NCBI RefSeq assembly: GCF_000003605.2
Contig: NW_003135351.1
Span: 388,755-431,760 of the forward strand
DNA length: 43,006 bases
Direction of reading: 5' to 3'
Source: Saccoglossus kowalevskii
Taxonomy: Eukaryota > Hemichordata > Enteropneusta > Harrimaniidae
The notes beneath the pieces are model-generated. The model was not told the origin of the DNA. It searched no databases and worked only from the letters and a program-made list of their open reading frames with translations. Made by a program: the position numbers and the translations under genes. Shown here piece after piece: positions 9,311-39,342 of the stretch; the stretch's first letter is position 1, and the number at the start of each line of letters is the position of its first letter.

Positions 9311-9312
9311 TA

Positions 9313-9520: not shown

Positions 9521-9578
9521 TATATTTATATCACTCTAAACTAGTCGTTTTTGTTTAAACTCAATAAATAGTAAAACG

Positions 9579-10126: not shown

Positions 10127-10132
10127 TTTATT
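10127..10132 (-). promoter_or_regulatory. candidate poly(A) signal AATAAA for nkd
   Basis: TTTATT on the plus strand reads AATAAA on the minus strand, about 550 nt after the nkd stop codon. It is the first canonical hexamer I found downstream. ATTAAA variants lie closer, at 10649-10654 and 10616-10621. The true cleavage site cannot be decided from sequence. Confidence 0.3.
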
Positions 10133-10539: not shown

Positions 10540-10553
10540 GGGGGGGGGGGGGG
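10540..10553. repeat. G14 homopolymer (C14 in the nkd transcript sense)
   Basis: Fourteen consecutive G about 130 bp downstream of the nkd stop. On the minus strand this is a poly(C) tract in the probable 3'UTR. Its length in the assembly may be inexact. Confidence 0.85.
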
Positions 10554-10680
10554 TTAAAACGGCACCATAAAATATCAGATAATAAAATTATATATTAAAG
10601 AATTATTTCTGTATTTTTAATATTTCTAGAATATTTGTTTTCAAATAATTTAATAATGTTCTTTGTCATTTCACCATATG

Positions 10681-11392
10681 CTATGTCTCGTGGTAATGAT
10701 GATAGTGATAATGATGATGGTGCTGATGATGGTGATGATGTTCGTGTCTCTGGATTATTGTAGGTGTCATTTCTGGTGTAACATTCTCAGTTCCTTTGAC
10801 AAACTCCTGTTCTAAGATTGAAATCTGTTGCTTCAGTTGTTCCCTGTGGCGCGTTCGCTTGTGTTTCCCAGTACTAGGACTTAAACGTTCATTGATTGGG
10901 TAGTTAGTTGTTCTTGATTGCGCAGCCAGCTCATTACACACCTGTGCACTAAGTTCACCACAAGCTTTTGGCGATTTCACTTTATGTAAACTGTATATGT
11001 TTTGTACTCTTTGCGTTTCCAGGAGTCTCTGATACAACTCGCTCGTTTTGAAATCCTGAGTCCGTGCTTGTGCAAGATTTTCACAAATGCGCATATTAGC
11101 AGGGTCGTACGACCGCGACCTGTGGTGTCCCCGGTTGCGATAATGACCATGACCCCGTGAGCAATGTTGCGATTTTGACCTGAGCGGGGCAATGTTACCA
11201 TGGTTGCGTGATTGCGGTACAATAGGTGATTCCTGCAGCTTGCTGGTGTAGTTTTCCACTCCAGCTAAGTCCAAATAATGATTCCGTCGATCTCGGCTCT
11301 CTCTGTCCATAATATGGTCCCTGTTGTTTGCATACTTTTGTCGTCTTTCTGATTCCATAGCTGTCGTTCCCCTCTGATCGCTATGGTGCCTC
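10681..11392 (-). CDS. nkd: nkd last coding exon 8 (residues 290-526), His-rich C-terminus
   Basis: Acceptor TTACTTCATAG; the first G completes Arg290, followed by RHHSDQRGTTA. The ATG at 11358 is therefore internal (Met302), not a start. It contains RRNHYLDLAGVENYT (325-339), nearly identical to vertebrate NKD1 RRNHYLDLAGIENYT; SRSYDPA; SPKACGE, corresponding to SPKAQGK; a basic KHKRTRHRE patch; and the terminal QRHEHHHHHQHHHHYHYHHY stretch before HET and TAG (10683-10681). The His-rich tail is a hallmark of the family and may bind zinc. Confidence 0.97.
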
Positions 11393-14300: not shown

Positions 14301-17300
14301 TGCTTTTACTATTCGATAAACACTCACACTGATTCCTGACTTGGAGTTACCAATAGGCGGTTTTGTATCACTATCAAAACTCTGGTCAAATGTCAACACC
14401 GTCACATTCGCTTTTCCTGACATGGTTTCTGGCGGCAGTGCAACTGAATTCAGAAAAAGAAAAAATAATTAATTTCAACTAAACAAAAACAACGTAGATT
14501 AAATTATTGTCAGAGAAGTGGATTGCATTCCTTCATGCAACTTGATATAAACATATAAACTGAAAAATACAAGGGATTTTCAATTCACTGTTTTGAATAA
14601 CAATCTCAAACCCAATCTATGTGGGTTGTTTTTGCGTAAACAACAATACTCAAATGCAATTTGTTACAAAGGCATTTTTATTCTTCCACTTGAGAGAATT
14701 TGTATGCAGTTCTTTGTGAAACAGATTTTGAAAGGCTGCAGAAATGCACGTACACATTGTAATGCGACCAGTTACAAAACAGCTTGGCCGATATTTTACC
14801 TGAAAACTAAAGTCAATGTCTTAGTCAATGAATTTATTTGATTCTTTGAACACTTTTTTTTTTAAATCATGTCAACAACTTAATTTTGGACCAAATAAAG
14901 ATACAATTATTCATTTGCTACAAATTTTGATTAAAATGTGCTAGTTTATTCTGTGAGTGGTGACATATAAACAGTTAAGAAATAAAAAACATAATAAGAA
15001 TATTGATATTTTGAAAACTGAATCTTTTTATTAAAGAAGTGAGTAGTTTTTTTTCTCGGTCAAATTAATATAAAAGCAATATATATGGTTTAGAACGCTG
15101 GGAAACTGCTACCATAGCAACTGAAACATTTCATTTTGATTTCAATGAAATGTAATTATAAATACAGTAAACTATTCATTATGATTAATTGATCGTGAGG
15201 TCAAAATTTTACATTGGTCGATATGATTCATCTTTGGAGCTGCAGTGATACCCAAATTAAGCTTCGATTTTTGTCACATTTCACAACACATAAACAAACT
15301 GACCACAATCTGTATAGCTAGATGATAATTACATCCATTTTGTCCATAATTAAAATTATAGAATTAAAGAAATTTACGTAAATAAGGAATTCCGAACTGT
15401 TTATCAAAAGGAGGAAACGAGAAATGCATGAAACTATTATGTATATGATATACATTCACCAGTGACATATTTTTTAAACCCATCTGCGGCTTACAACATT
15501 ACCAAGGAAAACGCCCCCTGAGAAAAAAACAATTTAAGCCAAACAAAGTCAATCGATACTTGCCTTCAAATCGACACTGATCTTCTGCAAACCCAACCGG
15601 CTTGCAATCTTCGTATCGTTCTTCCTGCCCACCAGCCTGTTGATAAACAAAAAACAGAAAATGAGATTATTTGTATCTTAAAATTTGGGGAAAAAAATTA
15701 TCTGACTGCTTCTTCTTCTTCTTCTTCTGTTATTTTTCAATAAAATTATACAGTTTGTTTTAGAAAATACAAATAAAGCAACCAAGTGATACATTCTTCA
15801 TAATATTGGAAAGCGCCACCTACAGTTGTAAATAGAAAATTGATGTAGGTACATTCAAAAGGGGGAAAACAATTTCATCAAAAAATTATCTTGAAATTGA
15901 TGAATAAATTCAACACTCTGAAAATCAAGAGCTCCATTTTGTGTTTAACATAGACATGAATAAGGTAATTGCTGACTGGATCTGTTTCAAGGATGGTTCC
16001 TCTTGAAAATTTTGTCTTCTGACCTACTCCCTATTGTGCCTGTTAGATTAGATACAAACGGCCCAGTTGTGTGAGAGAAAGAACAATGTGTTGTTTCTCA
16101 TAAAAACTGTTCAACTTGTAGTTGCATCAGTCCTTGCAAGTCAATAAAAACGGTGACTGAACTAGCACAATTGAGTCCAAGTGTTCCAAGGCATCTAATT
16201 AACATATCTGTGACAAACCCGACCTTTCTCATAAAAACTTTCCAAAGTTTTAATTGTTTCATACCATACTCTGCTGCGTTTAGCAAATATGTGAACACCT
16301 ACAAGGTTCCCACGGCCGCATATAATTTACAAAAAAAAAAAAATTACACTCCCTCAAACTACCATGATGAAACAGAAATATAGATATATAAAAAAAAAAA
16401 AATGTCATGTTTACAAAATAACTGTAACAATGCTTTTGATTTGAAATGAAAATTTCTTGTGACAAAGGTTATATATATTCAATAGCATTCATCTGTACTG
16501 GGTAAGAATAGAACTGAATACTGTAGTTCATGTAGAATGCATGGCTCCTCATGGAATCAGGGTGAACTAATTGCAAATGATTTATACTGAAGCAGTGGTG
16601 GTACATGTAGCAGTAGAAAAGACCAAGGATTGTGAAACAGTATTATGATAAGGCAGTTAAACTCATTAAATCTTGCTGTATCCCCTTAGCTTTTGTTTCT
16701 TTAATATGGTACTGTTTGTTAACGCACAAAGAATAGGTGAATTGTTTAGCCGGGTTTTAGCAAAGGGGTCCTATTGATAAAAGTGAATTTTGCTTTAATG
16801 ACAACAATACTGTTCGTACATGCCGATTCCCATTTCTTGGAGGAGAGAGAGAGTTCTTATTCAACCGCACAAAAGAAACAACAAAAAATTCACTGGAGCG
16901 CAGGATTCATTTTGCTTTCCCCACTCAGGCGGATTTTAGTTTTAAAACAGCCACCCGCTGCAGGGCAGTTTTTACTGAGAAAGATCCACAAAGCCGATGT
17001 CATCGCGACAGGCTGGTGTCGGCCTATTACACCAGGTAGAGAACTAAAGCAAATAAGCAGTTGCTACGCAGTGTCCAGAACCAGCACTTCATTCAACTGT
17101 ATACACACTATTGATCAAAACAACTAATTAAGACGCAGATAGTATTGTTAGCGGCTATCAATGTCAAGGCAAAAGAAACCACCTTCATTGAAATAGACAA
17201 CATTATACAGTACTTGCTTAAAGGCTAGAACTCATAAACAAATAGTTGACGTTTTATTCTATAGATGGACCACAGTTAGTAGTCAGACAGTGTTTTAGAT

Positions 17301-20300
17301 GGCTAGTGGCAAATCGAATCCACATCATACATGTATAGCGGCTCAACAGTCAAACTGAACACATATGCATGCAGTGCCGATTATTTTTCATCAGTTGTCC
17401 CAGGCATGCAACCTCAATGAACACACTTAAAATCCAAGGACATTCAATGACCAGTAAACCGTTTGGTAAACAGCTTTATGGGTTTTTTGTTTTTCTTTGC
17501 TCTGTTGAGATCCGTCTGCATGGGAACTGCTTACACCAGTACCAATGTATTAGTGTAAGATTGGGGTCATTTTCAATGCAGCTCTCAGTAGTTGCATTAT
17601 CTAACATTAACCAGAAAAAGAAACTTTTTTAATAAATGTTGATCACAGGGGTTCCATACTTGATCACTTTCATATGGACTAGTATTGTAATTTAACATCG
17701 AAAATGAGTACAAGTCAACAAACAACTCTTTTTTCTTCTTTCATAGCTACATGAATGGGCCCATTAATAAGGTTTTTGGCCCCAGTGGCCATAATGCATA
17801 TTAACCCTGAGTCCACACACAGTTGTATCGTAACTGCTACTACTGACCGATCATAAAGACATAAACCTCTGACTCAGTAGAGCTGAGCTATACAGCTGTT
17901 TACCTTAGTAGAAACCACTTCATGTTGACCCCTATATTAAAAGATCACATCCTTCAACCATAGTTAGTAAACAGGAAGCCACTATTCTGTCATTTTTGGT
18001 CTGAGTCATCCTATTCCCAAAGCCATTAACACCATGGCAGTAGGTAGTTTACACAAATTAATAAGAATACTTAAAATTAAAGTTCATTATGGTGTTCATT
18101 AAATAGTTCTACCCAGCGACACGACACATTCAATAACATTGGCAATGTGAGCTCTGTAAAAAATAATATCACAATAAACATTTTTTTTTTATTTAAAGAA
18201 TCTATATTTGTTATTTAATTGTTTTTTTCAAAAAAAAATTAAATATTCAATCTTTCCACAGACATAAGTCCATATAATATTTTACAGGTTATCCCCTAAT
18301 GGAGACTATAAAATGACATCAAAGAACACATTATTACAGACATTCTTCTTCTTGAAGGCACGAAAGGGTGATTTTTTTTTTAAATGAAGAAAAAAATCAT
18401 AGTTTCGTAAGAATTCTGTACGAATGTTACTGTCAAAAATCAGTGTGTTTATTGGCAATTGAAATCACCCATCATAAAGCGTATGCGAGTGAAAACTGAC
18501 CTATATTTTGTTTTATAGCTGTATATACGAGAACGAATGTACAATCATGGGTGTGTACATATCCTGTAAGAAAAGGATATTATATTTTTTCATAAATAAA
18601 TAAGTTGAAATAATGTGTACAATTTTTATTCACAATTTGAGGAAAACATTCGTCTATTACACAATTTCCTCTCTATATTTCTGTCCCTTTTTCCTGTGTT
18701 TATATAGACCTACAAAATGTTTTGCTTTTTTTCAGTTTAACTAAACAAGACATAGATGTGAAAGGAGATTTGTTGACGACATTCACTGCTCAGGTTTACC
18801 CACTGAAGGTAAATTTGCACAGGACAACAATGGCGCTTTCAGAAAGGAAGAAAGACTAAATTCACGGCTGTGTGACTCCAGAATCTGGGTCTGTGAATGC
18901 AACCATGATGCAAAGCAGCTGGTTTGTTCTCCCAGTAGGGGATTAAGAAGCCATAAAAAAGCAACAAGGCAAATACTTATGAATTTGTATGGCTACCTGT
19001 AAAAAGGAAGTCATTTTTTTCTAAAATATATAATTTTTATATTTTATAAACAATGATTATTTTATTTTCATTTTCATTCGGCCTAAAATACGTTCTCCAA
19101 CTGATCTCATTTCATTTATTTATTTATTCATTTATTTAAAACTACCCTTATGGCCAAAAAAATGGGAAAGAAATGGGAAAAAAATGGGAACTGTATTCTA
19201 TATCTTGACATACCATATCCATTCATTTAACAAAATCCTTTTAAACTTCCATTTAAGCAAATACTTAATCCAATTGAAATATATATCTTCTGTCAATACA
19301 GTACAAATGCATTAACTGTGATAAATTCAGTTACATCAAAGCAGGCCATATCTGGAGTTTTTACTTGGTTCATTAAAAATTGACATTGACATGTTTAGAA
19401 TCATGAACACCCATTATGGTGGCAATTGATTTACTGAGACCAAAAGGTCAATAACAAGATCAACATTTTATGAGGACAATGATAACAACATTTCTTCTCG
19501 AATTTTAATTTCTTTTCTCACAGCAATGTCACCACATTGACGATATCAAATAAAAATTGTTTTAGAGGGGCGTGGACATATCAGATGACCTTTGACCTAG
19601 AGGTTTGTGACCCAAATCATGATCAAAGGTCACCTTCCTAAGACAGGCCAGCAACTCGGTCATGACCTATTTATAAGCATAAATACCGTAGTTCAATTGA
19701 TAATTTCCTAAAAAGAAAAGCGCTGTTTACAGAGAGGAACGTTTCTAACTTGATTTGACACGTTTTTCACAGGGTCATGTCTCCACCGCCGTCTAGGATC
19801 ATATCCTCACCATCCTCACAGGGTCATGTTGCTATCCTCAAAAGGTTATGTCTCTACTCTCACAACCCACCAAAAATATTTTTACGTGCGTGTGTGTGTG
19901 TGTGTGTGTGGAGGTGATCACCTGCGCATAAGGCGGATATGTCGTCATAGTGTGTCGTTATTTATAAACAAGTGTCCACCCAAGAGCCTATGCGTTGTTA
20001 GTGTACGTTGCTATCGTCGCTGAGGACTCGATTCACGTGCAGGTGACAACCCCTCAATTTTTATAAAGACAATAAAACAACAAAAGTTAAACCAGGTGAC
20101 ATTTTTCTAGAAACCCCACCCAATTGGAGGAGATTTTACACACATAAATCACAGAGTTTGACACAAGCTCTCAAAACTGCTTAGTTGCCATGGCAACATT
20201 TACAAGCCCTTTTATGGCAACTATGCTTTTAAATAATTACCTTTTATGCATTCCATGTGTCATCTTGGATTGTTTTCGCTATCACGAGCAATGTTCTCAC

Positions 20301-23300
20301 GTCTTTTTTAAACTTGACAATGAAACTAAATGAACATTTTATTTTAGATGAATTTAGTCTTTTTTTTAAATTAATTTTCATTTTATTTTTCATTTTTATT
20401 AAAATCGTATGTAATGTAGTAATATTATTGGACAGTTCTAAAAAACAAAAAGCTTTAAACGTACACATGTGCATAAACAAAATTGAAGTGGTCAAATACT
20501 CTGGTTTGAATGTCAAAAGAATGAATGTGAATAAGGTGAATATTAAAATACAAAAACTCGTGAAGTTTTATATTCATCCTGCAATATCCTACACTATATG
20601 AATATTTAAATTTCAAGGTCAACACTCTGATTTTTATCTTACCAGCAACTTGAATAAAGGGGCCAATATTTAACTCAAATAGATTCAATTCCAGTGTATG
20701 CTTACCCTATTTAGTGCCCCTCAAAAGCTGGTACACAAAAATTAACCTTACAGGTACACCCCCAAAAGCATATAAATGACGGTCAATTAAAAAAAAAACG
20801 AGGTTGGAGCATTTTTAAAGAGAGTCAATAAAGAACGGTAGAAATGTACAGCATTGTGAAGGCATGCAGAAGCCGCTCTATCAGGATTGTGGAATGAGAC
20901 AAGATATTGACCAGTTACCTTTTTCACTGTCTTCTCCATTGATATGTGCGAGTCAATGATTGCTTTTTGTTGCATGCGTCGACGAGAATTCAGGTATTTG
21001 TCATAATGTGAAGCATATACAGTGACTCAATCAGAGAAAGGACAGGAAGTGATGCGCAAATTTGGTCAAAGGTCAATGTTGACAAGAAATCTACATATAT
21101 ACTAATTACTATCACCCCACTGCACACAACTTTTATGCATTTTATGGGTGGTTGAATGTGAATTGTTTATACGGTATATATAAAAAATAATGTTTTTTAG
21201 TTTATTATTAAAAGAATTGTATTAGGAAACACCTGAAGTATCAGGCAGTAATAGCATATCACACCACACATTTCAATATTAAAGCTTCCACAGAAGCAGA
21301 TTTATCTGCAGAAAATAAGCAGTTGTAAAGGTGAGACGATGTTCACTATATTCTGGGAACATCAAAAATATTTTTTTTTCTGAGAACATTTTTTACTAAT
21401 TCACGTAATGACCATCAGCTAAAACTGAATTTGGTTTATGCCAACTGATGACATCATGTCAAGCTGACCTTTTACTGACCCATCGTAACAAATCACATTA
21501 ATTAACCAGCCATCTATGCTTACATTTATGCTTCTAATAAGGATATATACATCATTTAAGATGAGAACAGAGATGAAATCCCGGAGAACAGAGATGAAAT
21601 CCCAGAGAACAGAGATGAAATAACAATAGAACATTTAGTAGCATGTGAAAAATGGGGGGTGGTTTCCCAAGATATCCAAGTACGTTATTAAAGTGTTGCC
21701 AAGACAACACTTCATACTCGCTTGAACATTCATACATGTATTCAGTATGGACTAAACCAATATATTCATATATGTATTCAGTGTGAACTAAACCATTATA
21801 TTCATACATGTATCCGGTTTGGACTAAACCATTATATTCATACATGTAATCACTATGGACTAAACCATTATATTCATACATGTATTCAGTATGGGTTAAA
21901 CCATTATATTCATACATGTATTCAGTATGGGTTAAACCATTATATTTATACATGTATTCAGTATGGGCTAAAACATATTCATACATGTATTCAGTATGGG
22001 CTAAAACATATTCATACATGTATTCAGTATGTGCTAAACCATTATACCCATACATGTATTCAGTATGGGCTAAACTATTATACCCATACATGTATTCAGT
22101 ATGGGCTAAACCATTATATTCATACATGTATTCACTATGGACTAAACCATTATATTCATACATGTATTCAGTATGGGCTAAAACATTATATTCATACATG
22201 TATTCAGTATGGGCTAAAACATTATATTCATACATGTATCCAGTATGGGCTAAACCATTATATTTATACATGTATCCAGTATGGACTAAACCATTATATT
22301 TATACATGTATTCAGTATGGGTTAAACCATTATATTCATACATGTATTCAGTATGGGCTAAACCATTATATTTATACATGTATCCAGTGTGGGTTAAACC
22401 ATTATATTCATACATGTATTCAGTATGGGTTAAACCATTATATTCATACATGTATTCAGTATGGGCTAAACCATTATACCCATACATGTATTCAGTATGG
22501 ACTAAAACATTATAATCATACATGTATTCAGTATGGGCTAAACCATTATATTTTACATGTATCCAGTATGGGCTAAACCATTATATTTATACATGTATCC
22601 AGTATGGAATAAACCATTATATTTATACATGTATTCAGTATGGGCTAAACCATTNNNNNNNNNNNNNNNNNNNNNNNNNNNNNNNNNNNNNNNNNNNNNN
22701 NNNNCAGTATGGGCTAAACCATTATATTTATACATGTATCCAGTATGGACTAAACCATTATATTTATACATGTATTCAGTATGGGTTAAACCATTATATT
22801 CATACATGTATTCAGTATGGGCTAAACCATTATATTTATACATGTATCCAGTGTGGGTTAAACCATTATATTCATACATGTATTCAGTATGGGTTAAACC
22901 ATTATATTCATACATGTATTCAGTATGGGCTAAACCATTATACCCATACATGTATTCAGTATGGACTAAAACATTATAATCATACATGTATTCAGTATGG
23001 GCTAAACCATTATATTTTACATGTATCCAGTATGGGCTAAACCATTATATTTATACATGTATCCAGTATGGAATAAACCATTATATTTATACATGTATTC
23101 AGTATGGGCTAAACCATTATATTTATACATGTATTCAGTATGGGCTAAACCATTACATTCATACATGTATTCAGTATGGGCTGAACCATTACATTCATAC
23201 ATGTATTCAGTATGGGCTAAACCATTATACCCATACATGTATTCAGTATGGGCTAAACCATTATATTTATACATGTATTCAGTATGGGCTAAACCATTAT

Positions 23301-26300
23301 ATTTATACATGTATTCAGTATGGGCTAAACCATTATATTTATACATGTATTCAGTATGGGCTAAACCATTATATTTATACATGTATTCAGTATGGGCTAA
23401 ACCATTATATTTATACATATATCAATTGTTTTACTAGTTCTTAGAGTAAACTAGTGATTTCAGTAAACAGACAAACTTAATAGATTATTTTTATTACGTT
23501 ATGAAAGAAACATGATTTGAACTTAAATATCACACTAACATTTTTTTGCATTAATTTTTTTGTTTTTCCTGAACTCCACTAACGAGTCTCAAGACAATCG
23601 CAATTTCCCTGACAATTGAAATTTCCTCGGGCTATTTCTAATTAGGGATGAAAATAAAGGATGCTAGTTATTCCATGAAGACACTGGAAATTGCTCATTC
23701 TATCGGCTCTCCATGAGTCTCTGTCAGAGGGACCGTGTGGAATTGATTAGGCATCCAAATGGTATTTGTAGTGGTGTTCGTGGTGCCAGTAGAATTATAT
23801 GCAGACTTGGTACACGCCAAACTAATCTTGCCGAGTCTCCTGATAATCATGTACTGACAGAGCTAGGATAGAGTATCCTCTTCTATTACTTAGAGATGTA
23901 TCAATGATACATACACCAGAAACCAAAGAAACCTGGCAGCTGTTTTATAATTTTTCAAAACATGGCAGTCCATGTACATGTAGCATTAACAAATCTGGAA
24001 TTGCAATATAATTTTTGCTACAAAAATAAAATGCACATTAACAAATAATTTTAAAGATTTCATTCTCTAGGAAGGGTGGGTCAGCTGTTTGAAGAGCCCT
24101 TCATTGATTTTACAAATATGAGGAGGTAAATATGTACACTATTTAGACTTCTTTAAAAACAAACATTTGAATCAGTTATTCATATATTAGATACTTCAGT
24201 ACTTTCAATACTGGCAAACATTATTATGTGTACTGTTTTGTAAAAAGCACCAAAAAGCCATTACATTTTGATACAAAATCCTCGGAAATTTGCACTGCTA
24301 CAGAGATAACATAAATTTGTACGTGCCTCAGAGTAAAGAAGAAGCAAATCAATGCATACATATGAATCAATCACTTCTTTACAGATACAGAATCACCCTG
24401 ACAATCAACATTTTCATTAATCTACATAAATTGAACTGTTTTTTCCATAATATGGTAGTCTTAATACTGCTAATGTATGACCAGTCAGTTTAATAGGAAA
24501 GTAAATCTCACAAATTATAGGCAACCCAAATTATTGTTCAACTTAGATGCAGTGAATTCATCATAATCAATAATCACAATTCTGATTGCCACTGTTTGCA
24601 ACGAAGGGATTTTTAATCTAATTTTTGATCATGAATATCTGACCATGACTGTATTCACTATGCATCTTATGTTCACTGTGTGACAATCATAGGGGATAGT
24701 AGAATACGTATATAATTTAGGCTGTTCTTCTTAAATTGAAGGAGAAAAATCATCAACTCACAAAATGTTTTTCATAAAATAAAAATTGTATTTGTAAGCA
24801 ATTGTGATCATGCTCAGTCTGAGAAGTTCATGGTGTAACTCAAACTTGATTCTTGTCAGGTCATTCCAAAGTATCAACAAGAAATGCTTTCCAGAAACTA
24901 CTCAATTAAAAAGGAACGTTCACGCTGTGATGTGAAATTAATGCTCTACTATGTACAGGTCACCTGATGTAGCCTCAAATACCACAGAATGGTTTAGCTG
25001 GTGTGCTATGTTGTTTATGCATTTATCTATTTCATATACACAAAATGTAATTTTGATGATTTATCACTAATATCACCAAAAAATAATTCTTAGAGATATA
25101 GTGTGAGAAAAAGGTCTCTCTTTCATTAATTTTTCAGAAGTTTTTTCAAAATACACAATGTCTTTTTAGACACATAAAGCTATTTATTGTGCAAAATATA
25201 GGATTATTTCCAAACTACATCAATCTTTGACCTGTTTTTTGAAGTCATTATTGTCATGTATAGGGGCAACAAACTTGATTGTCTATCGGTGTATAATAGA
25301 AAATTAAAAAAAAAAAATATTTTCTATAGTCGAATAATTAAAAAAAAAATCGTGGCAACATTTGGGTTCAGGTTTTGTTCTTATAATAATAATAACACTA
25401 ATTTTATTTATAAGACTAATTTCCTACAGGGTGTTATTTTTGGTTTTAAATTGGATTGCAGGACAATTATCCAGCTGGAACAGAGGAGTACATATCCCAC
25501 CATCAATCAATCAATCAATCAACCCACATCAAGCAAATGTCCCATAATGAAGACAATTGTTGGCCATAGATTGGAAGAATTAAATTCCCAATAAAAAAGA
25601 ATACATATCAATAAAAAAAATGGTTCATTCTTCTAGCTTATTGATATCACATTATTCGCTCATAAATTTAGAAACACCCACCAACACCAACACCCAAGAC
25701 ATGAAAAAACACCCCTCACACAAGAACTTGATTCCCATCAATGCTGCACTATTAGAATAGTGGGATCTGAAGCATTTCCATTTCATTGAAAAAAATCATA
25801 ATCAAAGAATGATATTTGTAAAGACAATCGACACAAACATATGATCACTTTATAGTGGGGCTTAGTTTGAATGACCTTTAAACTTTGACTTGCTCAAACC
25901 AACCTTTTTATTTGAATTCAACAGTTGAACATTATAAGCTTAGATTTATCCTCACCAATGATATTTTTACCAATAGTTTCACATACTACCGAGTTCTTCT
26001 TATTAATAGCATGTTTCCCATCAGTGTAACTATACTTGCCAAAACAGTGATATAAAGCATTTAATTCCCATGATTAGATGATGACATTTTTGAGAAAAAT
26101 ATTTATAGAAGTTGACTTCATGTCTAGGAACCCAGTGATATTTTCACTGCTACAAATGATTTTACACTGCCTTTCAAAATTTGTCTCGCAACATTAAAAC
26201 GGTTTATCAGAACCATAATTAGGTTGAGATTATAATATACAGCAGTGCAAAATGAACCACTGGTATTGAGGTTGGTATTTCAATGCTTGTATCCGAGTAA

Positions 26301-29300
26301 TAATAGTTTACCCTACGCAGAAATAATTGGCAACAATATAGTAAATGAATAAACAATTCAATCTCAGATGTTGCTGATGTCAAATTGTAAGCCAATCTTA
26401 TTTGAACTTATTTTTATTACCAAGATGAGTTTACTGCCATAGATGCAACGCAGGTGTAATTCAAGAACATTTAACAGTGTAATGTCTACCCTGATGAAGT
26501 GGAAACAGTCAACAAGATTGTGTTTACAAAACAGGTATTTACAACTACACTGGAGGAAACAAACACAAAAGGTGATTAAACCATTGTAGATAAAGGTGGG
26601 GGTAGCATTACTTGAGGAAGAGTTGGACATAAAGCTTGTTTTGGCTCTGCATACATCTCGGAGAGTTCAAACAGTGCCTGATAATCATACTTATGAAGGC
26701 AGCAAAATCTGCGCCTTTTAAAAGCATTGCCCTTTTTTTCTAACAGATAACACTGTGGTGACTTAACAGCATGCCAAGCCTCAGTATGATAAAGCTTTTA
26801 ACTTTACTAAATTTCCAATTCAGCCATTCCCCAGGAGTATATTTAACGCATTCTCCGTTAGATTGGGGGGGGGAGTACTTCACAGCTCAAACTAGCCAAG
26901 CAGCAACCTCAGAAAATTCACTCAGGCTCAATAATGGACAATAATACTGCACTCAAATACAGTTCACAAAATCTGAGCACAATCATTTTTAGTGCCCCTC
27001 CCAAACTATAATAACAAAGAGAATCATGGGTAATTTGGCTTCAATCAGTTCAATCCCTACAATTGTGCTATTTTGTGTTTGATATCATAAATGTCCACAG
27101 TACACACAAAACAGAAAAGAGTAGAAAAATACAAAATCATTATTTTAACTTTTAAATTTCTGATTTACTACATGTATTTCAGAAGACTGAACGGACCACC
27201 CACTGAGTACCAGACACATATTATTTCACCTAGATCACCTGCATACGGATTTGGTTCCTCAGCTAGTATATCCTACAGCCACAATCTTTATGCTATTATA
27301 ACCATCTGTTAAAAATATCTTACCAATAACTGAGACACAACAAAATAATGAACAGTGTCCTATCAGATAAAAGTTTAGAAACACAGAAATTTGATCTTAA
27401 TACAATGAATAAAATTAAATGGGATTCAAAAGTGATTTCAAACGATCCATACGTCACAAATCATGTGATTGTTTTTAATTCCAGTGGCATTAAACTTTTA
27501 TGTATAACTTCCGGAATTTTTGAGACGCATTAATGGAATGTTGGGATAAATTCTTTTTTTCATTCAGAATCATAGTTTCCACGTAATTTAGTTCAATGTA
27601 AACTAAGCTGAGTGTTGTAATAGCTAGCTCAGACCTGGTTCACTGATGCTGAATAACCGCACCCATTTGTTGCGCTCACTTCACCTAAATAGGGAGGGGA
27701 AAATAATACTTTTTATCTTTACAATTAAGCTACTAACTCACCAAGAACTCATGCTTTATGAACTCATACCGGCACAGCTTTAATAAACAATGGTCAAATT
27801 CTTTTCCATTCATAAATGCTCTTAGCGTTTAAACATCCCATTTTCAGGGCGCGTGTGACGTAGTTACATGTAACATACACACATGTGGTGTTGACATTTC
27901 ACAATGTTGTTCATTTCACACGTAATCCAATAGGACTCAACATCTTAACTTAAAAGATCCTATTAATGCAATGATATCCAGAGATGTTTTCAAAACAGCC
28001 TTCTCACCCAATATGGTCTCCATATCTTCTAGTTCATCTCAACAAATAATGAAATATCATATTTAATCACCTTAACCTTAGAAATATGTATGGTATCAAA
28101 AAAAGCTTAAATGAGAGAATTTCTCAGATATATTTGAAAATATTGTTGTTCAAAAGAAAAGTTTTGTGTAAATAACACATTTGCCTTGCATATGTAGAAG
28201 TTACTATGTGTAGTATGGGACCCACATTGAATGTGAGTAATGGCAGTGATACCTGCAAGGCCTTCATAAGCATTACTACACAAAGTTACAATGTCCACAT
28301 TTAATATACTCATGTGATATCCAGCAGTCAAGTTTTATATAAATACAGTAGTGAATGAATACATCCAAGAGGTTATTTATGAAGAGGGAGGGAAGGGTGA
28401 ACATCTGGTGCATTTATATTATCTCATATACAATTTATAAACACTAATTGTGACAAAGTATCAATAAATGCATCAGACCGACAATTTTTTTTTTTTTGTT
28501 TTTATATCAGTTAGGACAATAAAAAAATTAATGAGAGATAAAGGAAATACAATAATGGATGTGTGATATCAGATTTATTAAAGTTTCAAACCATTCAGCC
28601 AGCCTGTATATGTAAATTACAACGAGATACAAATTTAATAAAATCGCTCAGAAATCGTCAAGTGTTTTAAGTTAAGGTTAGGGATTAGATGAAACTATTT
28701 TGATGGTCAGTCCAGTATGTTTCAAGTTTGCTCTCATAAGAGTCAGACTACTTTAAACAACTTTGACAGTGCATCATTAGTATGAAATTTTGACTGTTTT
28801 GTATAAAGTGTATTTTCACTGGTTTTTGATGAGTTGAATGTAAAATATAGGAAAAACAGTATACCGTGAAATACTTTATTTTCGCTTGGAATTAATTTTC
28901 GCTGAAGGAAAGTTACAGTGTAAATAAAATCCAGCGAATATACCTTTTTTTTCTATATTTTACATTCAACTAGTCAAAAATCAGTGAAAATAAATTCAAT
29001 ACAAAACACCCAAAATATCCTTTTAGTGAAAATTAATTCCAGCTAAAATAAAGTATTTAAAAGTATCCCTCCAGTGAAAATAGCAAAAGTAAATTTCAGG
29101 TGAACATAAAGTAATTTACAGTATGTGGTAACAAGTACAAGTAACTCCAGCCAAAATAATCAGAATAAACATTACCAATAAGCAGCAGGTTTATTTTGAA
29201 TCCACATTAACAGGGGGTCTGAATCCTGAAGATGTTCAGCCTTTATGCTAGGCCAATGTTAAGAATGTTGCACTTGTAAACAAGTCATCATTTTATACTG

Positions 29301-32300
29301 AACTGTCAAAACCTGCTTTTCAAGTTCCACTCGCTTTCTCATAACCCCTAAGGCAGATAGATAGCAGAGCGCTGATTTTCATTCATAACTACCACAATAC
29401 AGTGTGGAATGCAAGGCAAAGACAACAAATGACCAAGTCGTCGGGACAAGAGACCAAGATACAACAACATATTGTTGTTCTCAACTTCAAAGGCTAAGCG
29501 TTAACTCTTTCATGATTTTCTTTTCAGCGCTACATTAAACCTAACTCAACGACTCTTGATGAATCAAATGACATGAATAACAAGTGATAATAGTCGTACG
29601 TTGTCACGATGTGTAACTTAATGCAAAAGTATAGTTAAAACTAAGGTCAGTAAGGGTATAAGACAAATTTAGAGAGAGCTTGTCATTTTGGGACAAAATC
29701 GGTATTATTTGTAATAAAGTTACACACGATACACTCTTCCACACTTTCTTAAAGAAACTTAATATATACATATATTTTAACATATTTTATGTGGTAGTAG
29801 AACTCACGTGAATTAAAAAAATACAGGAACATATTAAATAATAACTCACTAAGATTATCTGTATAGTTCAAGCATTCACAATTAAGAGAATTAGCAACAG
29901 ATATAAATCAAATGCACACTACTCGATAATGGCATCCCAGAATGCAGCAGTGCAATCTCTGGAAATTGATAGTTTCTTGTTTTGAGAACTCAAGAAGAAT
30001 TTGGAATCCATGAATTTAATTCAGTTAGAAACCTAATTAATACAAGGCATATGTTTTACAGAAGGTTACCTGCTATTTGCAAACAAGAAAATCGAACAGA
30101 CTTGTTATGACCCCAAACTACATCATAATAACTCCATATGGCCTAGAAATAAGCCACCGACAATTAGCAGTAATAATACTTCTAAAAAAATAAACTAATG
30201 ATCCTCTTACCCGGAGTAAAATATTTTGGATCTGAAATAAAAAGACATATACACAGATGTCTATAACCATACAGGTCATATTCCAAAAGAATTTGCTTTT
30301 CAAAGTTAATATTGGAATTTGAAATACACATTCATTTACAGATGCAGTTTGTATTTGTCTGTTTTATTTAATTATTGGGCAATTACAACTGGTTTGCACA
30401 ATCAATAATATGAACATATTTTTAATGTCAAAAATTAAATTTTGAATGCAAGTGAAATGATTTGAAAAGTGAAATAATGTCCCTTTCCATATTGTTGCAG
30501 AAAGTACCATCACTAAAAAAGGTGAATGCACTATCCATTGGAAAAAAAATCGGTCTATGTAGTATATTTTGAATGTGACAATGGTTAATTTATTCTCTTC
30601 TGGTTATCAACTGATAATTCAAAAAACGAAATCCATTTAATTAAAAACAACAAAGACATGTTATGGTCACAGCTGAATTTGCAACAATCAATACCACTGA
30701 TACATATGTGCAAGTACAACGAGTGCTATCAAAATAGAGAGAATAAAAGGCGCAATGTGTCATCGAAACCATTCAAAATGGCCGACAAAGATGATTTTGA
30801 ATTTTAGTTTTAACTGCATATACAATCACATTTTGATATTTTTATCAGAGCGACATTGACGTCAACTTCAGAATAACTGTAGTGATTTCGACAATATTTC
30901 AAATTATTCTGACACTAGCATCCATTGGTTTATATCTCAGGGAGTTTCAAAATCGAATTAGAATTTTTATTTTCTTTCCTGCACAGCAGTCGACAACATT
31001 ACAATGTTCTTTTCAAATCACCTGACCCATATTAAAAGAGCCTGTGCAATGCAACTACGGAAAAGATATAAAATTTTATCACCAGTCTGCAAGTCTGCAG
31101 CGGCTTTATTACCTTTTTCTTCATTTCATCCATTCTTCTGGGTTCGTATAAAATGTAATTTCAATCAAAATTCAGAATTCATTTGGTGGTCTTCCTTTTT
31201 GGTATTTTTTTCAACGGCGACAACGTAGACAGGATTTATGAATTTTCTTTTCAATCAATCACAATATTGTTATATACTGTTGTATAAATTTGATGAAAAA
31301 AAATAGTATTTTCATTCAGGAACAGGGACTTTAATTTTACGATTTCAACAGTATTTGAGTATTTCTTATTAGTGGGCAGCAAATTTGCAATTATAAATAA
31401 TTCTGCAACAGTAAAACCATCTTACTTTTCACCAGTGTATGGTAGCAATGAAATGACTCACTGGTCTGAGTTACTTAATGTATATAAGCATCCACAATTC
31501 ATTTGAATGAAATATTCAAGATATTTTCAGTGGCACAATTAAACACTTCCTACTGAGCAAACCAGGAGGAAAAGAAGTTTCTATTGATAACTGTCTAACT
31601 GTCTAGTTCCTTTTAAGAATCCAAACAAAGAGCTTACACATGTAAGTAAGTAAACTTCTTCTACTTTCAATTGGTTTTAATTGACAGATCGTTCTTGTGA
31701 TAGAAAGTCAGATTACTCAAATAATTAGGAACAGTGGAGAAGGAATGCAAGTAGTACTTCATAAAAATTATATTCTATCTATTAAAATTTTGTATCAATA
31801 AAATGTTGGGCATAAAAACTCCACTTACTAAAATGCCTCAGGCCTTCAACTCAAAACAATTAAAAGAGAGGAAAATCGGATCAACCAAATAAGCCACAAA
31901 GAATTGCCTTAGTGTCAACGATGTCAGCATATCTACAAAAGACGACAGTGCTGACTCCTTAACAAATGTAGGCATTTAAATAAATACATACACATATCTT
32001 ACACTTCAAAGAGATTAGAAAACAGGATGAGCCTTTGATGCTGACCGCAAGGGTCATTGACACTGGACCTTCTAACAGAACTGGGACCCATCCCACTATA
32101 TCAGCAGGTCACTGCCTGCACAGTGTAGATATTGCTATGGATGACTGGTCAAAACAACAGTAGACTGTACTCTGTTAAGAAATCACTTATCAACTATGAT
32201 TCTCCTCACAAACATCCTGTCTTGTCTCTTTTACATCCATCTTTCTCTCCTCCAAACCAACTTTATACATTTTTAAGTCAATTTTCAAATCAGTTTTAAT

Positions 32301-35300
32301 AACATTTACCAGTATTTTTGAGACATCGATTCGAGTCTGAATAATACAACATTAGGGGTTGAACAACATAAAGTTGATGAATTCTGAGAATTTACAAAAA
32401 ATATTTTTTTTAAATTGCACAGGGAAAATGACAGAAAAAAAAACATTTATACCAGAAAGCTACATCATTCTAATACAGCAATCCTATAAGTTGCCATCTT
32501 CCAGTGAATTAAGTGCACTTGTGTAGCGTCAAAATGATGAATGTGAGTGAAAGCAATGTCATTCAAAGCGACAACAATGTTTGGTTGTTTAGTCGTTCAT
32601 CATCTAGTTTAAAGTAAATCTCTCAAAGACATCAATTTCATTGATAGATAACAAGAAAACAATAAGATTTTGATGGACAATTTGAACAGCTTTTGTGCCA
32701 TCGGTTTACGTCATCAAAGCGCTCTGCCACTAGAGGGCACAACTTATGAGAAAGGTCCATTTCTGAAAGTTTTTATATTCTGCTTAGGGAGTGGGTGGGA
32801 AAACACAACTCAAATAGGATTTAAACTGATATGCACTATTATTAAAATTTTTAAAACGAAAGAAAAAAAAGCTATGATATTTTTAACTTACTTCGAGTAA
32901 TGTGTGAATTACTAAAAACCATTTAATTTTTACTTCTAGGGTTTTTTTGATTATTTAAAGTGTCACTGCCGTCTTGCAGTTCATATTCGGCAAAATGGGG
33001 TGTGACTCCTTTGAATACCATTGATTTACAGAGACCTACAAAATTAAAGCACTTTACAGCATAGCTACATAAATAAAAAAATAAAATCTACAACCACAAA
33101 CATCCCCCCAACATCCCCCCCCCCCACACACACACACACACCTGCATTCTCACTCTTTTAATCAGAGTGAACAAGATCACTGACATTTTCGAATTTTGGA
33201 TAAAAACATAGAAAACCTGACATGAAAATGTTCAATACTGCATGAAGCATTGACAACTATGGTATTAAAAAGTCATGAATTCTTTGTACTAGAACAATAG
33301 CAAATGGAAGCGCCACTTATATTCATTCATTTTATCATCCATTACTGCACGGTGAACATAAAAAAAAATACAGGCATTAAATGACTAACCCAGTATTTAC
33401 AACAAAACAACGTACTTGTTAGTACAATCAGAACTATCAAATCAATAATCTCTCACAAGGGGACTTTACAGCCAGAGTAAACAAGATGTCTGTATATATA
33501 CTCTACAATTCAATCATCTTAAACCATCCTGTTTTTCTTAATTATTATTTCAGTTGTTTATTCTATTTTCACAAAAAACCTTATTAACTACACATTGTCA
33601 TCAATGAATTGTTACTATTTAATGAAATGGAAATATAGTATTGAAGAATTAACAACACAGAACCATTTAATGAACCAAAGGGGATCCCATATTATAGCAA
33701 ACTACAAGAAAAAAACATACATAACATCCATGGTTTATTATACTAAATTCAGTCATGCTTTCATCAAAGCTTTAACAAATGAACTTTTTTGGCATAATAT
33801 AGTCATGGTATTGTTAGTGTAACCAATCAAATTTCTCTTAAACACATGCAGCATGCATGGTAAGACTAAACTAATTAAGCTATATGGTGAGTTTTTGAAT
33901 TTTTTGTTTTTAATTCACAGTTAATATGACTTGGTCAGTTCATAGAAACACAGCTGAAAGCTTTCTAGATGCTCACTTAGGCCAGAAATGATCAATAGAA
34001 ATAACTCAAATACCAGAGTTAGTACCAGTTCTCCCACCCACCAAGAGCTATTTTTTTTTCTTTTTTGAACAAATATGAGCAGTGCCATTGGTTAAAGTTG
34101 TGCATACTTTTTTGGCTAATAAAAAATACTCATTGAACATTAAAAAAAGACTATTCAGGACTGAAGGCTATGTCATCAATATATTTATACTGTTTTATGG
34201 GAATGACATCTACAAGCCCTAAACTGGTTTATTCCAGCAAACTCAGCATACACTGTGCTAACACCCTTTGCCTTCATAATGAAGTTGGACATTTCTTTCT
34301 ACTAGCAGTCCTTTGATACTAGCATAGTGATCTCGTCATGGGGATTGTATTAAGATATCCATGCCTGTCTTTAAGACATTTGCTTTTGTCCGTTCTGGTT
34401 CTGTAGTTACTATGGTTACCTACATCTATTACAGGTCCGTGCATGAATTCACGTTGCCTCGCTACACTCTTTCCTCAATAGGCAACCAGAACTAAATTTA
34501 TTCCCCCTTTTGTTTTCATACTCAATTGTTCAACTTCCGGTTGTGCAGGCATCTCCGAGTGTTTTAACATGTCCATCTCGGATCTACGGATGGTTCTCTT
34601 TTTTTAATATGTATATCGATATATATGGGGGTAACATACATATCGCAGAGAAGGGAAGCTTAAAATTCGGCGCAAATGAAGGTTACCATTTAATTACAGA
34701 CGATACAAAACTGGAAATGAAACCCAGCACAATGTATTAATTATGAACCAAATGACTTGACAACAACAATTTGATTTTCAACAAAACCAATCAAGACCAT
34801 GAAAGAGAAAAGACCGCACGTCAACTGACATGTATATTTAAAATTATTCGAGCAACTTCTCGCTGGCTCATGTTTATCGCAGCCACGACAGTAAATAGTA
34901 AATCGTAAAACAGGCTAGAAATTAAACGAGCATGAGGCTGCCTACGACCTTGCCTTGCTGCGTAATTTCAAATACAGCCGCAATGTAATGTTACCGTAAG
35001 CACTCACGATATAGCACGGAAAATGATGTCCTCTTTCTGTAAACGCCGCATGAATTCTGCGCTAATGAGAGAACGACATGGCTTTCCTGAAGTTCAAGGC
35101 GGATGGCAATGAAATACGATTCCTTTGATCAGTGGATACAAATACACAGCAAACTGGAGAGCGTGTTTTCTGCAAAACATTGCCAGCTCAAGATCGGCCA
35201 CACACACACGCACGTCGATTTTACCCCATACATCATGCAAGGCCCAGCGAACAACAAACAACACAAGGGATATCCTCGTCCCGATTTCTCGCCATGTGTG

Positions 35301-35991
35301 GCCAGCCCGACACGTACCTAACGGCAAACTGTCTTCGCGGAACAATCAACGCAGATTCAGACCAAAGACCGCCGAAACAAATAGTAGCAGAACACGAAAT
35401 GAATATGCTGTTCAACGCACACTTACCGGATTCAATCGGCACTCTTTGTAAGTGGCCAAATTCCAACCTGTGGTCGATTTCTGACGATTGTACTCCTCTA
35501 TGTTCCGATATTTGGTATTGAAGTTGCTATTGAGAACGTAGGTTCCACCTAGATTAGATACAAACATTCATTGTATTTAATTGTAAAATAAAATTTAAAA
35601 AAAATTGTATCTGATGCGACGAGACCTTCTTAGGTCCATACTGAGGCTAACTGTAGCTCCGATCCTGAACGGGCGATTGCGCCGAACTACGACTGAAATG
35701 TGCTCACCTTCGGGACTCTCACGTTTCTTGAACGGCACAGCTGCTTGAGTTACGACCAATAATATAAAAATGACAAGTAAGGAAAGAAAAGAAAAATTAA
35801 TACCAATTAGAAATTAAAGCTCGAGAAAACACGCAAGCTCCATAACAAAAGCCAAAATATGACATTGTACGCAGTGTGTAAACTGTGTACGTTCGGAGTC
35901 AGTAGCACACACACTCCCTCACGACACGCTATTCAAGTTGACCGAGAACGACGTATGAAAACGTACCGTGTTTACTCTGAAGTTTGCCCAT
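10681..35991 (-). CDS. nkd: Naked cuticle homologue, Wnt feedback inhibitor (8 coding exons)
   Basis: Coding exons: 35991-35967, 35743-35708, 35548-35427, 15636-15564, 14443-14328, 12439-12344, 12173-11773, 11392-10681; total 1581 nt, 526 residues. Nkd proteins bind the Dishevelled PDZ region through the EF-hand area and restrain Wnt signalling. Seen here: MGKLQSK at the N-terminus (Gly2 and Ser6 fit N-myristoylation, known for vertebrate Nkd2); KKRESPEG (14-21); VALPPE (86-91); EF-hand with loop 146-157; a conserved tail LASLMHSIYE after the loop; RRNHYLDLAGVENYT (325-339); SPKA; and a His-rich end with 14 His in the last 22 residues. Length is slightly above vertebrate NKD1 (about 470). All junctions keep phase, and six of seven introns are GT-AG. 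No frameshift or stop is present, so the gene looks functional. I am sure of the family; extra non-coding 5' exons or alternative exons remain possible. Confidence 0.95.
11393..11772 (-). other. nkd intron 7 (380 bp)
   Basis: GTCAGT donor and ATAG acceptor. Nothing notable is seen inside. Confidence 0.93.
11773..12173 (-). CDS. nkd: nkd coding exon 7 (residues 157-289)
   Basis: Acceptor TTGAACCAG, donor GTCAGT at 11772. It begins DLASLMHSIYEMV, the second helix of the EF-hand, matching vertebrate NKD (DITSLLHTIYEVV). Next comes SGSKTMKLRLSVVPES, matching SSKMLRVKLTVAPD. The remainder is basic and low-complexity (HRGRKQRHRHHEEEE, KRRSRSD), probably disordered. The exon leaves two bases (AG) of codon 290. 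An open frame runs past both splice sites but has no conservation there. Confidence 0.96.
12174..12343 (-). other. nkd intron 6 (170 bp), splits the EF-hand loop
   Basis: GTAAAC donor and CCAG acceptor, phase 0. It falls exactly between loop positions 11 and 12 of the EF-hand. Confidence 0.94.
12344..12439 (-). CDS. nkd: nkd coding exon 6, first part of the EF-hand (residues 125-156)
   Basis: Exactly 32 codons, phase 0 at both ends; acceptor CCTTGCAG, donor GTAAAC. It encodes CDVSVDDLDKQEWCFTLYDF and on to KITRE, closely matching vertebrate NKD (CDVS, QEW-FTLYDFD, GKVTRE). Loop positions 1-11 of the EF-hand are here (D146, D148, H150, G151, I153); position 12 is the first codon of the next exon. 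The EF-hand area is the Dishevelled-binding part of the protein. Confidence 0.97.
12440..14327 (-). other. nkd intron 5 (1888 bp)
   Basis: GTGAGT donor and GCAG acceptor. The open frame at 13913-14230 has no family motif and overlaps no exon. No other feature is seen. Confidence 0.93.
14328..14443 (-). CDS. nkd: nkd coding exon 5 (residues 86-124)
   Basis: Acceptor CTGAATTCAG, donor GTGAGT at 14327-14322. It opens with ALPPE, completing VALPPE, which is identical to vertebrate NKD1 at the same place. The rest (FDQSFDSDTKPPIGNSKSGI) is acidic to neutral linker leading to the EF-hand region. It ends on a codon boundary. Confidence 0.92.
14444..15563 (-). other. nkd intron 4 (1120 bp), GC-AG type
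   Basis: The donor reads AG|GCAAGT, the full consensus for GC-AG introns of the major spliceosome; the acceptor is TGAATTCAG. Using GC is the only way to keep the conserved VALPPE in frame. Confidence 0.85.
15564..15636 (-). CDS. nkd: nkd coding exon 4 (residues 62-85), ends at a GC donor
   Basis: Acceptor TTTATCAACAG after a T-rich tract. It encodes AGGQEERYEDCKPVGFAEDQ then CRFE. The last base G joins TT of exon 5 to give Val86 of the conserved VALPPE. This phase is possible only if the intron begins at GCAAGT (15563-15558), a GC-AG intron. The nearest GT, 4 nt further on, shifts the frame to a stop (TGA) inside exon 5. Confidence 0.88.
15709..15728. repeat. (CTT)n microsatellite
   Basis: About seven CTT/TTC units, 70 bp inside intron 3 from the exon 4 acceptor. 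On the minus strand it reads as GAA repeats. Confidence 0.85.
19334..19342 (-). promoter_or_regulatory. candidate TCF/LEF site (GCTTTGATG)
   Basis: CATCAAAGC on the plus strand is a perfect match to SCTTTGATS on the minus strand. It lies 279 bp from the next site (19621). Confidence 0.4.
19445..19830. promoter_or_regulatory. candidate intronic enhancer: nuclear-receptor half-sites plus TCF site
   Basis: Half-sites GGTCA/TGACC occur at 19445-19455 (AAAGGTCA), 19586-19598 (TGACCTTTGACCT, a perfect DR1), about 19608 (GTGACCC), 19624-19631 (AAAGGTCA), 19658-19668 (GGTCATGACCT, a palindrome) and in GGGTCATGT at 19772 and 19821. By base composition about 0.4 half-sites would be expected in this length. 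A perfect TCF site (GATCAAAGG, 19621-19629) overlaps one of them. ACCGCCG lies at 19785-19791. DR1 elements bind HNF4, RXR, COUP-TF and related receptors. Function is inference. Confidence 0.45.
19621..19629 (-). promoter_or_regulatory. candidate TCF/LEF site (CCTTTGATC)
   Basis: GATCAAAGG is a perfect SCTTTGATS match on the minus strand. It shares AAAGG with an AAAGGTCA nuclear-receptor half-site, so binding would be mutually exclusive. Confidence 0.45.
19886..19910. repeat. (GT)n microsatellite
   Basis: GTGC followed by about ten GT units. Confidence 0.9.
21063..21075 (+). promoter_or_regulatory. candidate DR1 nuclear-receptor site
   Basis: TGGTCAAAGGTCA differs from the DR1 consensus AGGTCAAAGGTCA only at the first base. 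Confidence 0.35.
21563..21625. repeat. 21-bp tandem repeat, 3 units
   Basis: GAGAACAGAGATGAAATCCC recurs three times at 21-bp spacing, the last unit diverged at its end. It lies 100 bp before the 36-bp array. Confidence 0.85.
22241..22654. repeat. 414-bp block repeated identically after the gap
   Basis: Every base from CAGTATGGGCTAAACC at 22241 to ACCATT at 22654 recurs at 22705-23118, offset 464 bp, including rare variants (CCAGTGTGGG, ATTATAATCATAC, ATTATATTTTACATG, CAGTATGGAATAAACC). Confidence 0.93.
22655..22704. other. assembly gap, 50 N
   Basis: Fifty N, a conventional placeholder length. The flanks are the two identical 414-bp blocks. Confidence 0.99.
22705..23118. repeat. second copy of the 414-bp block
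   Basis: Identical to 22241-22654; it probably represents the same genomic DNA assembled twice. Confidence 0.93.
25501..25521. repeat. (ATCA)n short tandem repeat
   Basis: About five ATCA units inside intron 3. Confidence 0.8.
26864..26873. repeat. G homopolymer
   Basis: Run of about nine to ten G inside intron 3. Confidence 0.8.
28864..29121 (+). mobile_element. MITE copy 2 (258 bp, extended right end)
   Basis: The left end is CCGTGAAATACTTTATTTTCG and the right end GTAATTTACAG, flanked by TA at 28862-28863 and 29122-29123. It shares CGCTTGGAATTAATTTTCGC, ATCCAGCGAATATAC and TTCCAGCTAAAATAAAGTAT with the other copies. After the usual right terminus (AAAGTATTTAAAAGTA, about 29065) a second terminus-like segment follows (CAGTGAAAATAGCAAAAGTA to TTTACAG), making it about 50 bp longer. 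Same orientation as copies 1 and 3. Confidence 0.85.
30857..30864. promoter_or_regulatory. perfect CRE palindrome TGACGTCA
   Basis: TGACGTCA in intron 3, the consensus for CREB/ATF factors. One such palindrome is expected by chance in a window this size. Confidence 0.3.
32032..32068. promoter_or_regulatory. candidate TCF/LEF site (CCTTTGATG) beside nuclear-receptor half-sites
   Basis: CCTTTGATG at 32032-32040 is a perfect SCTTTGATS match. Directly after it come TGACCGC (32042) and GGGTCATTGACA (32051-32062). Confidence 0.4.
32712..32720 (-). promoter_or_regulatory. candidate TCF/LEF site (GCTTTGATG)
   Basis: CATCAAAGC on the plus strand, a perfect SCTTTGATS match on the minus strand. Confidence 0.35.
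33115..33141. repeat. poly(C) followed by (CA)n
   Basis: Eleven C, then about eight CA units. Confidence 0.9.
33762..33770 (-). promoter_or_regulatory. candidate TCF/LEF site (GCTTTGATG)
   Basis: CATCAAAGC on the plus strand, a perfect SCTTTGATS match on the minus strand. Confidence 0.35.
35122..35130 (+). promoter_or_regulatory. candidate TCF/LEF site (CCTTTGATC) near exon 3
   Basis: A perfect SCTTTGATS match, about 300 bp inside intron 3 from exon 3, in a GC-richer, CpG-containing stretch (34900-35570). ACCGCCG, similar to the TCF helper motif GCCGCCR of Drosophila, lies at 35368-35374. Confidence 0.45.
35427..35548 (-). CDS. nkd: nkd coding exon 3 (residues 22-61)
   Basis: Acceptor TCTAATCTAG, donor GTAAGT at 35426-35421 (strong). 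It encodes GTYVLNSNFNTKYRNIEEYN and continues to ECRLNP. The RNIEEY phrase lies where vertebrate NKD1 has KGIEEW; otherwise this part is poorly conserved in the family. The exon ends on a codon boundary, as exon 4 requires. Support comes from splice sites, phase and position more than from similarity. Confidence 0.8.
35549..35707 (-). other. nkd intron 2 (159 bp)
   Basis: GTGAGC donor, CTAG acceptor. Nothing notable inside. Confidence 0.9.
35708..35743 (-). CDS. nkd: nkd coding exon 2, 36-nt microexon (residues 9-21)
   Basis: Encodes AVPFKKRESPE between two split codons, matching the AAVCKRRESPEG block of vertebrate NKD1. The acceptor is CAAG after a pyrimidine-rich stretch (TTTTTCTTTTCTTTCC about 40 nt upstream); the donor is GTGAGC at 35707. 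Splitting codon 9 before and codon 21 (Gly) after keeps phase with both neighbours. It would be skipped by most gene finders. Confidence 0.9.
35744..35966 (-). other. nkd intron 1 (223 bp)
   Basis: GTACGT donor, CAAG acceptor with an upstream pyrimidine tract. Nothing notable inside. Confidence 0.88.
35967..35991 (-). CDS. nkd: nkd coding exon 1 (residues 1-8 plus one base)
   Basis: The ATG at 35991-35989 opens MGKLQSKH, which matches the start of vertebrate NKD1 (MGKLHSK). Context is GAGCATGG, with A at -3 and G at +4, a strong initiation context. An in-frame TGA at 36036-36034, 45 nt upstream, with no other ATG between, fixes this start. The exon ends CACG with donor GTACGT at 35966. The leftover G joins CA of exon 2 to make Ala9. 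The exon is too short to be seen as an open frame. Confidence 0.9.
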
Positions 35992-36320
35992 GCTCAGTTC
36001 TCCTGGCTCGCCAGCACAAGCCAAAGGCTGCGCTCACACCATCTAAAATCCAGAAATGACGAAAACAGCAAGTATATTCCTCAACGGGGTAGAAAATCCA
36101 CAGCGACGCGATGCTAGCTGCGTGTTCTTCGGCCCGCGCCAATGACTGTGTAACAAGAAGCGGTATTCTTCACAGGGTTTTGGCGTTTATGTCGGCTCTC
36201 TTTGGGATACTAGAGCCAGTGACTGGTGGGCGGGGCCAACACCTCGCCTGTCACCAACTGATTGATGGCGTACTACAATAAAAGCACCCGCGCTCTAAAC
36301 ACACCTCCTATTGGCTTTCC
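35992..36320 (-). promoter_or_regulatory. probable nkd 5'UTR and core promoter
   Basis: This stretch is GC- and CpG-richer than most of the window. Reading toward the gene on the minus strand there is a CCAAT box (ATTGG on plus, 36310-36314) and a GC box (GGGCGGGGCC, 36228-36237), then the presumed 5'UTR. I see no convincing TATA box at a usual distance. The transcription start is unknown, and non-coding upstream exons cannot be excluded. Confidence 0.45.
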
Positions 36321-39138: not shown

Positions 39139-39140
39139 TA

Positions 39141-39342
39141 CTGTAAAATACTTTATTTTCGCTTGGAATTAATTTTCGCTGAAGGAATGATTCAGTGAAA
39201 ATGAAATCCAGCGAATATACTATTTTTCCTATATTTCACATTCAACTCGTGAAAAATCAGTGAAAATAAATTCCATACAAAACACCCAAAAAAAAGTCTT
39301 TTCAGCGCAAATTAATTCCAGCTAAAATAAAGTATTTTACAG
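39141..39342 (+). mobile_element. MITE copy 3 (202 bp, best preserved ends)
   Basis: Ends CTGTAAAATACTTTATTTTCG and AAATAAAGTATTTTACAG form the cleanest inverted repeat of the three copies, flanked by TA at 39139-39140 and 39343-39344. Internal ATCCAGCGAATATACT and TTTTCAGCGCAAATTAATTCC match copy 1. No reading frame. Confidence 0.88.

Follow-up and report, generated by a model that had tools for sequence, protein, structure and literature searches.

Does the long third intron of a predicted naked cuticle (nkd) homologue carry an enhancer that responds to Wnt? In the published excerpts considered here, fly nkd follows Wnt (PMC4154663), human NKD1 and NKD2 are CTNNB1 targets as judged by a peak no more than 20 kb from the TSS together with a knock-down response (PMC3961325), Naked cuticle of the cnidarian Clytia is under-expressed after Wnt3 morpholino treatment (PMC4169000), and zebrafish Nkd acts as a feedback antagonist (PMC3756965). 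The initial annotation of the window, by which we mean the whole 43,006-base stretch of DNA analysed, placed six perfect TCF/LEF sites in intron 3 and proposed that this intron holds the feedback enhancer of the gene.

The gene is read from the minus strand. Eight coding exons (exon 1, 35967..35991, with the ATG at 35991; exon 2, 35708..35740; exon 3, 35427..35548; exon 4, 15564..15636; exon 5, 14328..14443, with a VALPPE motif; exon 6, 12344..12439, which encodes the first part of an EF-hand-like motif; exon 7, 11773..12173; and exon 8, 10681..11392, with the His-rich tail and the stop) join into a single open frame of 1578 bases, that is, 525 amino acids and a stop. All seven acceptors are AG, and the donors are GT in six introns and GC after exon 4. 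The end of exon 4, AAG followed by gcaagt (15562..15569), defines a GC-AG intron that is demanded by the reading frame. Intron 3 (15637..35426, minus strand) is a GT-AG intron of 19,790 bases; the bounds first given for it were right to the base, and the frame joined across them is open. Because the frames of exon 4 and of the EF-hand exon at first seemed not to agree, a missed coding exon within intron 3 was suspected. This candidate was rejected: exon 5 and the GC donor on exon 4 restore one open frame, and therefore no exon within intron 3 is required. An untranslated or alternative exon within the intron is possible. Exon 5 ranked first among 27 candidates for its gap and was chosen partly for VALPPE, which we take to be a vertebrate Nkd motif.

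The predicted protein begins with MGKLQSK, contains the EF-hand-like stretch LYDFDGHGKITREDL and ends in the His-rich HEHHHHHQHHHHYHYHHYHET; it also contains RRNHYLDLAGVENYTS, which presumably resembles a stretch of vertebrate Nkd. Members of the Nkd family also have a 30-residue amphipathic motif and bind Dishevelled. EF-hand Pfam matches to the joined protein (E 0.0014-0.003) fell under the curated cut-offs, Pfam searches with two of the exon frames gave sub-cut-off matches alone, and PDB returned seven weak matches (E 0.004-0.28), the top two of which cover the His-rich tail. A peptide pattern from exon 8 gave 12 matches in viral_contigs and 131 in genome_contigs, both collections of non-animal sequences, and none was confirmed as a relative. 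The name is thus based on protein layout and on likeness to vertebrate sequence, and not on a database hit. According to the excerpted source, NKD1 has an N-terminal glycine for myristoylation, an EF-hand-like EFX motif and a C-terminal His-rich motif (PMC2776356). The predicted protein has all three features in this layout, and the identity given in the initial annotation fits the eight-exon frame; judged by its predicted product, the gene is an nkd homologue.

Several features of the window are recorded here in their own right. GC content runs from 31 to 42% in 2-kb steps. The 414 bases before a 50-N gap at 22655-22704 (22241..22654) are identical to the 414 bases after it (22705..23118), and a 36-bp tandem array (21728-23422) surrounds both duplicates and the gap; the duplicates look like an unmerged overlap, that is, a false assembly duplication. 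A MITE-like dispersed repeat occurs in three places (9353..9532, 28774..29075 and 39137..39354) with inverted partial copies, and an inverted repeat at 5637..6101 has 88-base arms that are 81% complementary and lie 289 bases apart. Positions 1..600 hold a fragment of a retrotransposon polymerase with RT RNase H domains (E 8e-34 and 6e-33).

When both strands of the window were scanned with SCTTTGATS, all six annotated sites were recovered and no others. Every one lies in intron 3; there are none in 1..15636 or in 35427..43006, which bears out the earlier statement that the remaining ~23 kb (23.2 kb) is empty. Three sites read GCTTTGATG, two CCTTTGATC and one CCTTTGATG, with four on the minus strand and two on the plus strand. 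These TCF/LEF candidate sites fall into a distal pair, GCTTTGATG at 19334..19342 (minus) and CCTTTGATC at 19621..19629 (minus), and a promoter-proximal group of four: CCTTTGATG at 32032..32040 (plus), 3959 bases downstream of the ATG; GCTTTGATG at 32712..32720 (minus); GCTTTGATG at 33762..33770 (minus); and CCTTTGATC at 35122..35130 (plus), 869 bases downstream of the ATG.

The excess of strict sites is real and statistically uncommon. Markov models of order 1-3 predict 0.47-0.71 sites in intron 3, in agreement with the original estimate of about 0.5, and none of 150 sequences per order reached six. Euler dinucleotide shuffles of the intron gave means of 0.74 (shuffled whole) and 0.73 (in 500-base blocks), with none of 600 reaching six in either case, so the excess over dinucleotide-shuffled controls, which had been set beforehand as one of two refuting tests, was upheld. 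Shuffling the whole window gave a mean of 1.60 SCTTTGATS, and none of 100 shuffles reached six.

There is one explanation of this excess that we regard as a real, if rather unlikely, possibility: chance combined with post hoc choice, in which one consensus motif happens to stand high in a long intron and the six sites have no common function. In its favour, shuffling the whole window in 500-base blocks produced six sites in 4 of 1000 and 5 of 1500 runs. Also, the Poisson P of 2.1e-5 for SCTTTGATS, multiplied over the 8192 motifs of the form S-7mer-S, leads one to expect ~0.17 words this extreme. Against it, TCF is the motif that was anticipated beforehand for nkd, and among those 8192 motifs SCTTTGATS ranks third in intron 3, preceded only by words built on the simple repeats ACACACA and CCCCCCC. 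Among the 210 letter permutations of CTTTGAT with S flanks, CTTTGAT is the only one with six occurrences in the intron, and the runners-up have 5 and 4.

The flanking letters also speak against chance, since the excess in intron 3 is limited to the class with S on both sides: SCTTTGATS is found 6 times with 0.54 expected, whereas SCTTTGATW (1 vs 0.96), WCTTTGATS (1 vs 0.98) and WCTTTGATW (1 vs 1.73) are not raised. Elsewhere in the window the counts are 0 vs 0.62 for SCTTTGATS, 3 vs 1.12 for SCTTTGATW and 4 vs 1.14 for WCTTTGATS. Because the classes with one W are somewhat raised outside the intron, the contrast between flanks may partly be chance in the flanking letter. A test of 41 consensus patterns in intron 3 gave five at P<0.05: relaxed DR1 (1.9e-5), the TCF 9-mer (2.2e-5), HNF4/DR1 (0.001), CTCF (0.003) and SCTTTGWWS (0.011), the DR1 and CTCF patterns having entered the set after they were noticed adjoining the sites. 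Most of the other motifs tested were at chance level in intron 3, including those for SOX (CCTTTGTTS, 0 vs 0.35; SATTGTTS, 5 vs 3.9).

Looser forms of the motif favour chance. SCTTTGWW shows no excess, either in intron 3 (10 vs 8.0-8.2) or in the window (18 vs 17.6), and SCTTTGWWS is found 7 times in the intron with 2.9 expected, a count reached by 9 of 600 and 17 of 600 shuffles. The HMG consensus given in the excerpted fly study is the 11-base SCTTTGWWSWW (PMC4154663); it occurs 4 times in the window against 2.68 expected, and 26 of 100 shuffles reach 4. Three of the four matches belong to the six strict sites, those at 19334 and 33762 among them. The same excerpts describe functional GCCGCCR Helper sites near the HMG sites of the fly nkd modules (PMC4154663), and the initial annotation had invoked elements of this Drosophila type. 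GCCGCCR is absent from intron 3, with 2 and 1 copies in its flanks; likeness to the fly therefore fails on the Helper feature, which is another point for chance. The best helper-like words lying no more than 20 bases from the six sites have two or three mismatches, the same as at random positions.

A further point against chance is that the strict sites cluster toward the 5' end of the gene. The promoter-proximal cluster (32032..35130, taken without regard to strand) holds seven SCTTTGAW, including the four strict sites; measured downstream from the start codon, these four stand at distances of 869 to 3959 bases. A group of four strict sites as tight as this one (3.1 kb) arose in 1 of 1000 local shuffles of the window (3200-base span) and 0 of 1500 (3300-base span), and seven SCTTTGAW within 3300 bases likewise arose in 0 of 1500. 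Seven SCTTTGWW in 3.3 kb were matched by 51 of 1500 shuffles and the cluster of eight CTTTGAW by 97 of 1500. When the observed hits were instead placed uniformly, equal clustering arose in 109 of 5000 placements for the strict sites and in 21 of 5000 for SCTTTGAW. The motif and the limits of the cluster were chosen after the sequence had been viewed; with limits so chosen, 32032..35130 has the clustering of HMG sites that is a feature of TCF modules. The spacing of the four strict sites, 680 to 1360 bases, is far looser than in paired HMG-Helper modules. According to the excerpted text, reporters use perfect HMG sites in dense multimers, which natural modules lack; the sites in intron 3 are sparse, and therefore this remark neither helps nor hurts the case much.

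The site at 35122 also lies in a CpG-richer stretch. Over 30-43 kb, the part for which the ratio was computed, observed/expected CpG ranged from 0.00 to 0.87 in the nine 500-base steps from 30 to 34.5 kb, with six of them no higher than 0.31. Each of the 17 steps from 34.5 to 43 kb, which take in the 5' end of nkd and the DNA upstream, had a ratio of 0.78-1.65. The region 34501..43000 resembles a 5' domain of nkd and is perhaps an unmethylated promoter domain.

Of the two clusters that had been proposed, the one at 32.0-35.1 kb is thus unusual by the shuffles given above, and the one at 19.3-19.6 kb is weak. Of 1000 shuffled windows, 21 contained a pair of strict sites within 400 bases of each other, and 19621 overlaps DR1-like sequence, GATCAAAGGTCA at 19621..19632; for both reasons the distal pair is a poor second cluster. 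The DR1 consensus of nuclear receptors consists of GGTCA half-sites in direct repeat with one base between them. Perfect DR1 sequences, GGTCAAAGGTCA, are found at 19586..19597, 23 bases before the 19621 site, and at 21064..21075, 1.5 kb from the first copy and also in intron 3. These two are the only exact copies in the window, where 0.01 are expected, and none of 100 shuffles had two. By sequence, both are candidate DR1 elements, and the distal pair may respond to a nuclear receptor in place of TCF. That 19334 and 19621 form an intronic TCF/beta-catenin enhancer is a tentative proposal, which we consider unlikely though hardly negligible.

Other factors might likewise account for some sites more generally, 19621 belonging to an HNF4/NR2F-type DR1 element and the region of 32712 being of CTCF type, with TCF irrelevant at both. 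The DR1 matches just described support this reading, as does the CTCF-like word CCACTAGAGGGCA (32727..32739; Poisson P 0.003), the sole copy in the window, six bases from the 32712 site. The motifs were tested only after being seen beside the sites, and they touch at most two of the six; the other four are therefore unexplained by them. We consider this reading quite improbable. Still less credible is an origin of the count in insertions of old repeats bearing CTTTGAT words and not in selection, for although GGTCA-rich stretches such as 19580-19670 look repeat-like and other dispersed repeats are present in the window, the flanks all differ between sites, and no sequence from around any of the six recurs within the window over more than 17 bases. 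The 300 bases on each side of the sites are single-copy in the window save for that one 17-base match (at 35122), Rfam at gathering thresholds gave no matches in the whole window, and a pattern from the 19621 neighbourhood found none in viral_contigs.

We return to the TCF reading for the stretch of intron 3 nearest the promoter. What is observed here is the gene and its strict sites, which are in excess and clustered, and these observations make 32.0-35.2 kb a plausible Wnt-responsive TCF/beta-catenin enhancer of a known type, a reading that we favour modestly. TCF binding, a Wnt response and feedback would be expected from established Wnt biology. With Wnt off, TCF would occupy the perfect HMG sites and repress the gene; with Wnt on, beta-catenin would join TCF and nkd transcription would rise. 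The Nkd protein would in turn damp signalling at Dishevelled.

The Drosophila element nkdIntE lies in an intron. Like nkdIntE and nkdUPE2 as described in the excerpts, the candidate here would be Wnt-responsive regulatory DNA of the orthologous gene with HMG-type sites, but the fly elements have GCCGCCR by their HMG sites, whereas intron 3 has none and its strict sites in the cluster are 0.7-1.4 kb apart (PMC4154663). Vertebrate AXIN2, again as excerpted, has TCF/LEF regions in its promoter and first intron, with CTNNB1 bound by ChIP-seq (PMC3961325). The present candidate resembles it as a Wnt feedback inhibitor with several, here predicted, TCF/LEF regions; AXIN2 is a different gene, and the CTNNB1 binding is a property of AXIN2, the sites here being read from sequence. 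Human NKD1 and NKD2 belong to the same gene family as our gene, and the CTNNB1 peaks and knock-down response reported in the excerpts are features of the human genes. Among the matches listed in a search of open-licence PMC titles and abstract openings, none described intronic TCF sites of nkd outside the fly, which does not prove that no such description exists.

A second form of the TCF reading is that spread-out, isolated perfect HMG sites near the 5' end of nkd drive it without Helper sites, in a layout like that of AXIN2. We place this on the improbable side. The promoter-proximal cluster is a testable candidate and not a discovery. If the AXIN2-like layout were true, Wnt feedback through nkd would use a site grammar unlike that of the fly while its target gene is unchanged. 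A mapped candidate enhancer in another animal would allow one to ask whether a feedback loop keeps its DNA grammar or rebuilds it.
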